Made by a program: the position numbers and the translations under genes | NCBI RefSeq assembly: GCF_008040105.1 | Contig: NZ_VRMG01000005.1 | Location: 496,001 to 560,000 of the forward strand | Reading direction: 5' to 3' | Length of the DNA: 64,000 nucleotides | DNA from: Lacisediminihabitans profunda | GTDB lineage: Bacteria > Actinomycetota > Actinomycetes > Actinomycetales > Microbacteriaceae | Shown: positions 8,669-51,794 of the stretch, in pieces | Position numbering within the stretch: the first letter of the stretch is position 1 | Layout of the letters: each line of letters starts with the position of its first letter | Notes under the pieces: generated by a model | Seen by the model: only the letters and a program-made list of their open reading frames with translations | Database searches by the model: none | What the model was told of the DNA's origin: nothing

Positions 8669-9532
8669 GTGGCTGATCCTCTGACAAACTCCGGCGCCCC
8701 GATCGGGATCTTCGACTCGGGTGTCGGCGGGCTCACGGTCGCCAGGGCGATCATCGACCAGCTGCCGAACGAATCCATCCTCTACGTGGGGGACACGGCT
8801 CATTCGCCGTACGGCCCGAAGCCGATTGCCGATGTTCGCCGATACACCCTCGCCGTGCTCGACGACCTCGTCGCGCAGGGCGTGAAGATGATCGTGATCG
8901 CCTGCAACACCGCGTCGTCCGCGATGCTGCGGGATGCGCGCGAGCGCTACACCCAGGCCCTCGGGATTCCGGTGGTCGAGGTGATCCAGCCGGCGGTGCG
9001 CGCCGCCGTGCGCCAGACGCGGAACGGACGGGTCGGAGTGATCGGCACCGTCGGCACGATCGGGTCGAAGGCCTACGACGACGCCTTCGCCGCCGCCCCG
9101 CACCTCGACCTGTTCACCCAGGCCTGTCCGCGGTTCGTGGAGTTCGTGGAGGCCGGTGTCACGAGCGGCGCCGAGCTGTTCGACGTGGCCGAGCACTACC
9201 TCTCGCCGCTCAAGGCGGCCGGGATCGACACCCTCGTGCTCGGCTGCACCCACTATCCGCTCATGTCCGCGGCCATCCAGTACGTCATGGGCGAGGACGT
9301 GACCCTCGTCTCGAGCGCGGAGGAGACGGCCTTCGACGTGTACCGCACCCTCGTCAAGCACGGCATTCAGCGCACGTCTGCCGCACCGCCCGTGCACGTC
9401 TACGAGGCCACCGGCGACAGCCAGGCCCAATTCACCTCCCTCGTGACCCGCTTTCTCGGACCCGCGGTGTCGACCGTCGACCTCGTCGAGACCGGCACCA
9501 TCCACCTCCCAGCTAAGGACGCCATCGCATGA
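8669..9532 (+). CDS. murI: Glutamate racemase
   Basis: This enzyme converts L- to D-glutamate for peptidoglycan precursors. The 287 residues show all the catalytic landmarks: [13 protein letters not shown] with the conserved Asp, DTAHSPYG, the first catalytic Cys in IACNTASSA, and the second Cys with its His in LGCTHYPL. The GTG at 8669 was chosen because it sits eight bases after TAAACT and gives the typical N-terminus; the frame is open far upstream but antisense to pncB. It overlaps rph by four bases (ATGA), and murI-rph-rdgB is a common actinobacterial operon. Confidence 0.95.
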
Positions 9533-13622: not shown

Positions 13623-13707
13623 TGGTGCGGAAGAAGGGACTCGAACCCTCACGCCTTTCGGCACAGGTACCTAAAACCTGCGTGTATACCAATTTCACCA
13701 CTCCCGC
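13623..13707 (-). tRNA. tRNA-Leu (anticodon UAG)
   Basis: The 85-nucleotide minus-strand sequence folds as a type II tRNA. The acceptor strand GCGGGAG pairs with CTTCCGC, the CCA end is encoded, the anticodon stem CAGGT/ACCTG closes the loop TTTAGGT (anticodon UAG, reading CUA), a variable arm GTGCCGAAAGGCGT follows, and the T loop is GGTTCGAGTCC. It stands alone, with a repeat-filled gene-free block on its 5' side. Confidence 0.97.
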
Positions 13708-13800
13708 GAGTGCCGCTCAAGTGTATCCGCACCGGCCGGAGGCCGCCTCATTCGCCGATGTCCCCGCCACTGCGCGGCACTCGCTTGCCCCTGGCATGCG

Positions 13801-13983
13801 TTGTGCAGGACGGCGCCGCCGTCCACGGGTGTCCGCCCCGCAGACTCCAGTTGTGCAGGACGGGTGGTGCAGGACGGCAGGACGGGTTGTGCAGGACGGC
13901 TCCGCCGTGCACGGGTGCCCGCCCCGCAGACTCCAGTTGTGCAGGACGGGTGGTGCAGGACGGCAGGACGGGTTGTGCAGGAC
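13801..13983 (+). repeat. 86-bp tandem repeat, two copies plus a partial third, built on TTGTGCAGGAC
   Basis: Copy 1 (13801-13886) and copy 2 (13887-13972) differ at only three of 86 positions, and a third copy starts at 13973 but breaks off after about 15 bases. Each copy contains TTGTGCAGGAC twice plus one GGTGCAGGAC, and begins with a small hairpin (GGACGGC paired with GCCGTCC in copy 1; GTGCA paired with TGCAC in copy 2). Confidence 0.9.
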
Positions 13984-14072
13984 GGCTCGGGCGGATGGCG
14001 AGGACGATTGGCGCAGAACCGACGGGAGCGTCCTGCAGACCGGGACCGTTCGGGGCGCCACACCCCTGCCGT

Positions 14073-14139
14073 GTCCTGCACAAGCTGTCCTGCACAGGCT
14101 GTCCTGCACAGGCTGTCCTGCACAAGCTGTCCTGCACAA
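14073..14139 (+). repeat. Five 14-bp tandem copies of GTCCTGCACA(A/G)GCT
   Basis: Copies start at 14073, 14087, 14101, 14115 and 14129. The core GTCCTGCACAA is the exact reverse complement of the TTGTGCAGGAC core in the 86-bp repeat to the left. The sequence following the last copy (CTGGAGTCTG...) is the reverse complement of the CAGACTCCAG flank there. Confidence 0.92.
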
Positions 14140-14297
14140 CTGGAGTCTGTGGGGTAGGCACCCTCACCTCCGGGGCCCGTCCTGCAGAACACGGCCCGAC
14201 CAGAAGGTCCACGACCACGAGATCCGCAACCTCGCTCACGTTCACCGACTGAAGCGAGTCGTCACACCCAATCAACCACCCTGCCTGGGCAGTGCAC

Positions 14298-15500
14298 CTA
14301 GAGGTGGTCCTTCTCCGCCTCGACGCGGGGAACCAGCGGCACGGCCAGGGCCGGGGACGCCGCCACGACGAGGAAGGCGAGCGGGAAGCCCACGAGTCCG
14401 ATGAGGGCACCGACGAGCGGTCCCACCGCGGAGGCCGCGATGAACTGGCCGGTGTTCTGCACCCCGAGGGCGCGACCTGACCAGGCCGCCCCCGACATCT
14501 CCGCGACCGAGGTGAACGCGAGACCGTTGTCGGCCACCGTCACAGTCATCGCGACCATCAGCACGATCGCGCCGAGCAGCCAGCCGGCGCCCCCGACGGC
14601 GGCGAGCAGCGCCATCACGACGCACGCCGAGACCGCCACCCAGCGCAGGGGGCGAACCCGGCTCCCGACCCGGTCGCTCAGAACGCCGACGCCGATGCGG
14701 CCCACCGCCCCCACGAACTGGGCGGATCCCACGATGATGCCGGCCGCGAGCGCCGGGACACGCAGCTCCGTCACGAGCCAGACGAGGCCGAAGGTGGAGA
14801 GCGTGAACTGCGGCACGACGAGCAGCACCGATACCGCGTGGATGCGCCAGAGGAATCCGCTCGAACGGTACGGATTGCGCGGAGTTTCGCCGGTCGCCGT
14901 CCTGGCGGGCCGCGGCGGGTTCACGATTCCGATGGCGCAGGCGACGGCGAGCGCCGCGGTGAGCGCGAGGGGCACGATGAGGGCGGCGCCGATGCCTCCC
15001 GCCGACGCGATCGACGGCACGGTCACGGCGGCGATCGTCACGCCGAGCGGCTGTGCCATCTGCCGGATTCCCATCGCGAGCCCGCGCCGGTCCTTGGGAA
15101 ACCAGCCGACCACCACCTTCCCGCTCGCCGAGTTGGTGCTCGCCGACGCGGCCCCGCCGAGCAGCAGGAACACCCCGAGCGAGACGTATCCGGGCGAGAC
15201 CGCCGCCCCCAGGGCCGCGAGGGAGGTGAGCGCGAGTCCGCCGGCGATCACCCATTTCTCGCCCACCCGATCGGCGAGGGCGCCCCACGCGATGAGGGTG
15301 AGAACCATGCCCATCGTCGGCGCGGCGGCCAACAGGCCGGCCTGCGCGAGCGAGAGTCCGCGTTCGGCGTGCAGGAGGGGGATGAGGAACGCGGGAGTCG
15401 TGACGAAGACGGTGCCGGCGGTCTGCGCGGCGACCCCGAGCACGAGCGCGGTCCAGGCGCGCGTCGCGTGCGGGAAGGGGGCCGTGGAGACCGTGGTCAT
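14298..15500 (-). CDS. MFS transporter
   Basis: This is a 12-helix major facilitator of about 400 residues. The loop 2-3 motif is degenerate but present (WGALADRVGEKWVI), as is its second-half counterpart (GVLSDRVGSRVRPL). The pattern is that of small-organic-anion or drug-type MFS permeases; the substrate is unknown. I chose the ATG at 15500, which has GGGAGGA about ten bases upstream; an ATG seven codons earlier contains that ribosome site within its own coding sequence. It has no obvious operon partner: its 3' end faces the repeat block and its 5' end is divergent from the NeuA-like gene. Confidence 0.85.
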   Translation of the reverse strand: MTTVSTAPFPHATRAWTALVLGVAAQTAGTVFVTTPAFLIPLLHAERGLSLAQAGLLAAAPTMGMVLTLIAWGALADRVGEKWVIAGGLALTSLAALGAAVSPGYVSLGVFLLLGGAASASTNSASGKVVVGWFPKDRRGLAMGIRQMAQPLGVTIAAVTVPSIASAGGIGAALIVPLALTAALAVACAIGIVNPPRPARTATGETPRNPYRSSGFLWRIHAVSVLLVVPQFTLSTFGLVWLVTELRVPALAAGIIVGSAQFVGAVGRIGVGVLSDRVGSRVRPLRWVAVSACVVMALLAAVGGAGWLLGAIVLMVAMTVTVADNGLAFTSVAEMSGAAWSGRALGVQNTGQFIAASAVGPLVGALIGLVGFPLAFLVVAASPALAVPLVPRVEAEKDHL

Positions 15501-34278: not shown

Positions 34279-34352
34279 CCGACCCGGCGTCCCGGCCCGC
34301 GCGCCGCTCCTCGCCGCTCCTCGCCGCGCCTCGCCGGTCCGCGCCCCGCTAA

Positions 34353-34412
34353 TGTGCCCGTTTGTCGGGTCCGGTACCCGTCGTAGGGGCACAATCGCGA
34401 CAAGGGGGCACA
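34353..34412 (+). repeat. Palindromic repeat element, copy 1
   Basis: The ends TGTGCCCGTTTGTCG and CGACAAGGGGGCACA form an imperfect 15-bp inverted repeat, with a further GGGGCACA and a CGGTACCCG core inside. Its first 30 bases match the copy at 40149 at 28 positions, in the same orientation. It lies between the two LacI-family genes, whose 3' ends converge here; the rest of that 200-base gap is G/C-rich low-complexity sequence with no gene. Confidence 0.85.
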
Positions 34413-34478
34413 GGCACAAGCACGGGCGCGGCGGGGCGAGCGCGGGGCGGGCGCGGGCGCGGCAGCGCGGGCGCGGGC

Positions 34479-51532: not shown

Positions 51533-51589
51533 TGGCAGGCGAGCCCGTCGGCCGGTCCGCGCGCCCCCGCATCCTCCAGCTCCCGCCTG

Positions 51590-51698
51590 CCTCTTCCCGT
51601 CCGTTTCCCTCCCTTTCCCCTCCCGTTTCTCTTCCGTTTCCCTCCCTTCCCTTCCCTTTTCCCGTCCGTTTCCCTCCCTTTCCCTCCCTTTCCCTTCC
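51590..51698 (+). repeat. Polypyrimidine tract of short CCCTTT/TTCCC units
   Basis: About 108 bases are almost pure C and T, broken only by a few single G residues, in irregular copies of CCGTTTCCCTCCCTTTCCC. It lies in the 301-base gap between the hisN-like and rsgA genes, which holds no gene. Confidence 0.9.
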
Positions 51699-51794
51699 GA
51701 AATCCATGCAATCCGTGCCGACACGCCGCGGCGCAGCACCAACACGCCGAGGTGGGGTCAGGAATGCATGGATTTCGGAAGGGGAAGGGAGGGA
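51681..51794. repeat. Long inverted repeat (18 bp perfect, about 30 bp overall) with 54-base loop
   Basis: CCTTCCGAAATCCATGCA (51693-51710) and its exact reverse complement (51765-51782) are extended outward by polypyrimidine and polypurine arms to about 30 bp with one wobble pair. The loop is 54 bases. It lies directly downstream of rsgA and upstream of the hisN-like gene, both read leftward. Confidence 0.92.

Follow-up and report, generated by a model that had tools for sequence, protein, structure and literature searches.

A block of facing repeats beside a tRNA-Leu gene of Lacisediminihabitans profunda: probable cargo of an IS481-derived MITE

Introduction

What is the block of repeats that lies on the 5′ side of a tRNA-Leu gene in Lacisediminihabitans profunda, and how did it come to be there? 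The block was noticed in a 64,000-nucleotide stretch of the genome (the window), where a tandem array of long units faces an array of short units in the opposite orientation. The first-pass annotation, made from the sequence of the window, offered three readings: a nested transposition target, a protein-binding array or a structural RNA. Absence of the unit elsewhere would have reduced it to a local duplication. Bacterial MITEs and mobile insertion cassettes are short elements without a transposase that carry the terminal repeats of a parent IS and occur in many copies. We propose that the block is very probably the cargo of a non-autonomous MITE of this kind, derived from IS481, carrying captured host DNA and spread by transposition into CTAG.

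Results and discussion

Layout of the block

The facing arrays are as first described, with two 86-bp copies (97% identical to each other) and a partial third opposing five 14-bp copies. The core of the right-hand copies had been taken as exact, but two of the five carry CTGTGCAGGAC instead of TTGTGCAGGAC. The window contains 14 occurrences of GTGCAGGAC; shuffled versions give an expectation of 0.92 and a maximum of 3. The repeat block itself (13800–14163) is the interior of a longer dispersed element; the limits originally drawn cut the feature, which extends from about 13759 to 14301. Its parts and neighbours are as follows.

13759–14301 (start approximate), no strand: truncated copy of an IS481-derived MITE, left IS481 end missing; span common to at least three other genomic copies, plus the right terminal repeat
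13800–13988, plus strand: left array, with 86-bp units at 13800–13885 and 13886–13971 and a partial third to 13988; heads TTGTGCAGGAC facing inward
13913–13964, plus strand: left arm of a 52-nt inverted repeat (GGGTGCCCGCCCCGCAGACTCCAGTTGTGCAGGACGG...)
13989–14071, no strand: central spacer separating the two arrays and also conserved in other copies, with a 26-nt core at 14021–14046
14072–14139, minus strand: right array, five 14-bp units in reverse orientation
14112–14163, minus strand: right arm of the inverted repeat, containing AACTGGAGTCTGTGGGG
14205–14235, minus strand: putative captured fragment of a host amidohydrolase gene (source gene Amidohydro_3), reading ..ADLVV.DL.. on the minus strand; 87% identity over 31 bp to locus L082, 1396–1426
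14243–14301, no strand: IS481 right end; 81% identity over 59 bp to the last ~60 bp of a 1.1-kb IS481 in a sister species
14284–14301, minus strand: terminal inverted repeat CTAGGTGCACTGCCCAGG; CTAG at 14298–14301 is the target sequence and contains the MFS stop codon
14298–15521, minus strand: flanking MFS transporter gene, its TAG stop inside the CTAG at the element end
13623–13707, minus strand: neighbouring tRNA-Leu, outside the element

Pairing between the inner ends of the arrays, first put at about 35 bp, is more extensive: the best inverted pair joins 13913–13964 with 14112–14163, giving 52-nt arms that are 87% complementary. Nested self-insertion as the source of the facing arrays was rejected, the inner and outer repeats not being matched pairs; the repeats within one arm look like independent tandem duplications. 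Elsewhere in the window, a pyrimidine-rich tandem array (TTCCCTCCCT, several periods) occupies 51586–51699 and two GC-rich low-complexity tandem arrays lie at 34300–34478.

Copies in the host genome and in relatives

The check proposed with the first description, a genome-wide search for the unit, was carried out on the host assembly (4.02 Mb, 171 contigs) and returned TTGTGCAGGAC 203 times, compared with twice for the reversed control. The block as a whole gives 154 BLAST matches and the 26-nt spacer core recurs at 28 places with at most three mismatches. A tally made by hand, comparing the islands side by side, resolves these into some 36 copies of a single element plus seven or more stand-alone arrays of another layout; the dozens of divergent copies lie at unrelated loci on many contigs. 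They differ from one another by roughly 10–25%, a divergence at which no recent transposition is seen; the MITE is old and partly decayed. In one copy (L054; G000:C76:2414–2691) the spacer holds about eight repeats of 7 bp (CTATCCG) that the other copies lack.

The element interior was not found in 12 other species of the genus, two of which have the right end. None of 399 further genomes of the family has the tandem 14-mer, and exact searches of the GTDB contig collection, from which records of the genome itself were possibly excluded, gave no match.

Element ends and parentage

Full copies are about 460–690 bp long, contain no gene and end in terminal inverted repeats of the form nCTAGn-TGTACTGCCCAGGGACGTTGGTT; one short copy measures about 330 bp. 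Recognisable terminal repeats are present at both ends of some 15 copies (CTAGnTGTACTGCCCAGGGACGTTGGTT on one side, CTAGnTGTACTGCCCAGGCAGGTTGGTTGATTGGGTGTGAC on the other). An IS481 end can be recognised in about 27 islands, including the window copy, of which only the right end (14284–14301) is left, and in about ten copies no terminal repeat can be recognised.

A sister genome (G003) contains a 1.1-kb element that shares these ends; its IS481 transposase is frameshifted, and the ORF matches NCBIfam transpos_IS481 and Pfam LZ_Tnp_IS481. The MITE ends align to this element at mostly 78–88% identity, at parent positions 3–114 and ~948–1105; the copies cover its first 74–114 bp, its last 60 bp and some 33 bp surrounding the transposase start; the middle is absent. 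Read as the reverse complement, the left end still encodes HTAIGARPPISWLTNVPGQYS followed by a stop codon and the right end encodes VSHADAALTPKHR; the corresponding readings in a Leifsonia plasmid element are HTAIRNQPPITRLTNLPGQYT, again followed by a stop, and MSHANAALTPRHR. The transposase gene has thus been deleted internally, with its first and last codons retained at the MITE ends, and the terminal inverted repeats are those of the parent IS at both ends (in the window copy, at the right end only). Because its ends align to IS481 and retain the first and last transposase codons, we assign the element as an IS481 MITE.

An intact IS481 with exactly the MITE ends was not found in the host assembly. 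Two loci tried as the parent IS (L088 and L089) had no matching ends, and the multicopy IS481 at host contig ends has a terminal repeat that is related to, but different from, that of the MITE. Contigs C1, C23, C150 and C139 of the host (G000) end in or near this second IS481-type element, with the repeat TGTAGTTCCCAGGGACGTTG or TGTAGTTCCCGGGGACGTTG, and it also lies near the ends of C34, C76 and C2 (loci L061–L067 and L069 in all); it is probably a recent IS present in several copies, at which the assembly broke. One island (L038; G000:C65:45763–46433) is a hybrid with the MITE left end and the right end of the other IS481 type.

The closest known relatives are ISLxc2 and ISLxx4, IS481-family elements of Leifsonia xyli, with which the MITE shares a nearly identical terminal repeat (TGTGCTGCTCAGGGACGTTGGT versus TGTACTGCCCAGGGACGTTGGT) and the NCTAGN target. 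In ISLxc2 the repeat TGTGCTGCTCAGGGACGTTGGT is accompanied by an NCTAGN duplication and the target supplies the stop codon of the transposase (PMC2516522). ISLxc2 is 1.1 kb long and has a transposase gene, whereas the MITE is shorter, lacks the transposase and contains a repeat array. TnRErm46 of Rhodococcus equi likewise uses an IS481 transposase, duplicates NCTAGN, provides stop codons for neighbouring genes through CTAG and carries cargo (PMC6794481). It is autonomous, 6.9 kb long and gene-carrying, while the MITE has no gene.

CTAG target, stop codons and empty sites

A CTAG target has also been described for IS481 itself (PMC3053399). CTAG is present at both ends of most full copies, and in the 15 copies with both ends the outer NCTAGN bases match in 17 out of 30 comparisons, compared with 9.0 in shuffles (p = 0.00085), although the target duplications of individual copies are often imperfect. 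An intact CTAG is present at 38 ends, and 24 of these, among them that of the window copy at the MFS gene, close an open reading frame 100 or more codons long. The window as a whole has 20 CTAG sites in 64 kb, and 17 of the 40 strand readings terminate frames of at least 100 codons. The placement of the elements therefore seems to mirror where CTAG occurs in the genome, and we claim no preference for stop codons beyond this. By simple arithmetic from base composition, about 180 CTAG sites would be predicted in the window, so that the word is far rarer there than expected; it is found mostly where long reading frames end.

For an empty-site test, the flanks of eight copies were joined and aligned to sister genomes. 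At L039, the sequence of G004 aligns straight through the junction, and the L045 junction is crossed by alignments of G010, G009, G006 and G005, in both cases in the 70–75% identity range. The element is thus absent from orthologous sites at these two loci, the relatives being too distant for base-exact junctions.

Probable capture of host DNA

The MITE interior matches host locus L082, where an Amidohydro_3 gene ends (final codons ..GSWTFSAL and stop) and a convergent array follows. L054 matches L082 over 104 bp at 87% and L051 is collinear with it over about 296 bp at 70%. No IS481 ends were found near L082. Since at L082 the end of the gene lies in an open frame and IS481 ends are lacking, the direction of capture would be from host to element, and capture from L082 or a similar locus is the simplest reading of these alignments.

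The capture of host gene parts by transposons is well known in plants. A partial literature search gave no bacterial example of a MITE that had captured the end of a host gene along with an adjacent repeat array, and it is this interior, a captured gene end with a convergent array of palindrome halves, that sets the element apart from other bacterial MITEs and mobile insertion cassettes. In the Pack-TYPE transposons of plants, transposon ends flank host gene fragments (PMC8903248). The MITE is similar in this arrangement, but is bacterial, has IS481 ends and holds only a gene end and a noncoding array.

The palindrome unit and alternative readings

The stand-alone arrays are built of half-units that face inward (GACTCyrGTTsTGCAGGAC and variants), and a sister genome (G011) has simple perfect hairpins with 17-bp arms. 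Six intact stand-alone hairpins were compared, five from G011 and one from another genus. The search pattern forced all inner positions except one, so only seven positions count; none of the 42 unforced pairs is broken, and six positions show compensatory changes. Two occurrences outside G011 are a tandem array of ~28-bp half-palindromes (GTCCTGCACAACGGGAGGCGGGCGAGCCT) in a sister species (L164; G007:C143, ~8900–9040) and, in another genus of the family, the same palindrome core directly behind a mutY-like gene (L187; G108:C3:171362–171388).

These hairpins raise the question of whether the block belongs primarily to a REP/BIME-like palindrome family that spreads alone, the IS481 ends being secondary. 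The stand-alone units are indeed short, dispersed intergenic palindromes with compensated stems, as REPs are, at least seven of the arrays lack IS481 ends, and the G011 palindromes with their preserved pairing point the same way. However, the MITE copies do not have this character, the IS481 end recognised in so many islands argues against it and the palindrome unit is missing from nearly all of 400 genomes of the family. A Y1 (RAYT-type) transposase was found in none of 13 genomes of the genus by a search that was positive in five of 14 control genomes, and RAYT-driven REP spread is rejected for the genus. The layout also differs, with convergent tandem half-units here and alternating REPs there. 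We regard a primary REP/BIME origin as rather unlikely.

A functional structural RNA or a transcription-terminator module under selection would account for the position at gene 3′ ends and for the very stable predicted fold (z-scores of −9.1 and −9.5 on the two strands, relative to shuffles). The large hairpin that had been suggested is therefore predicted on energetic grounds, but its arms do not co-vary between MITE copies: among 20 copies the left arm always has CA, while the right arm has CA in 12 and, in eight, an uncompensated two-base change to TG. Rfam matches nothing in the region besides the tRNA and no T-run follows the hairpin. The structural RNA reading is thus unsupported for the MITE, and selection for such a role appears improbable, compensatory stem changes being confined to the stand-alone hairpins.

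Binding of a regulator, or of a nucleoid or partition protein, to an array of sites would fit a conserved 11-mer repeated in convergent orientation. The spacings between the 11-mer sites vary (14, 22, 36, 50 bp and others), the sites were dispersed by a transposon and the compensated changes in the stand-alone palindromes favour pairing over symmetric protein contact, all of which make this reading more doubtful still. Lastly, a local duplication or assembly artefact, for which no supporting point was found, is refuted by the genome-wide counts of core words, BLAST matches and core sites and by the spread of divergent copies over unrelated loci.

Proposed origin and spread

We return to the IS481 MITE as the preferred reading. 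The suggestion of a nested transposition target was correct in pointing to a mobile element, but the block is better described as cargo of the MITE than as a target of nested insertion. In the model that we favour, deletion of about 830 bp from the transposase gene of an ISLxc2-type IS481 element would have left both ends in place, and the element would have acquired the 3′ end of an amidohydrolase gene from the host, along with the adjoining convergent palindrome array. An IS481 transposase acting in trans may then have spread the element to about 36 sites. The transposase would target CTAG and, because this word is rare in the host and lies mostly within TAG stop codons, insertions would land at gene 3′ ends, where target duplication would preserve the stop codon. 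The arrays would have expanded and contracted copy by copy through tandem duplication. The window copy has lost its left end. Beyond perhaps capping transcripts, the hairpins of the MITE would serve no dedicated function.

A more speculative extension, which we put forward tentatively, is that GACTCCnGTTnTGCAGGAC-n2..5-GTCCTGCAnAACnGGAGTC represents an undescribed hairpin family of this lineage, selected for pairing and spread without RAYT, and that IS481 carried such a hairpin and a host gene end as a bacterial counterpart of Pack-TYPE elements inserting in stop codons. The hairpins may have a role, for example in terminating or protecting transcripts where genes end.

Conclusions

The element offers a case in which a bacterial MITE seems to have acquired a host gene end and the adjacent repeat array. 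The stand-alone hairpins raise the question of how such palindromes spread without RAYT enzymes. The element also suggests how IS481 may multiply with little harm in GC-rich genomes, where its CTAG target is mostly a stop codon that is restored on insertion.
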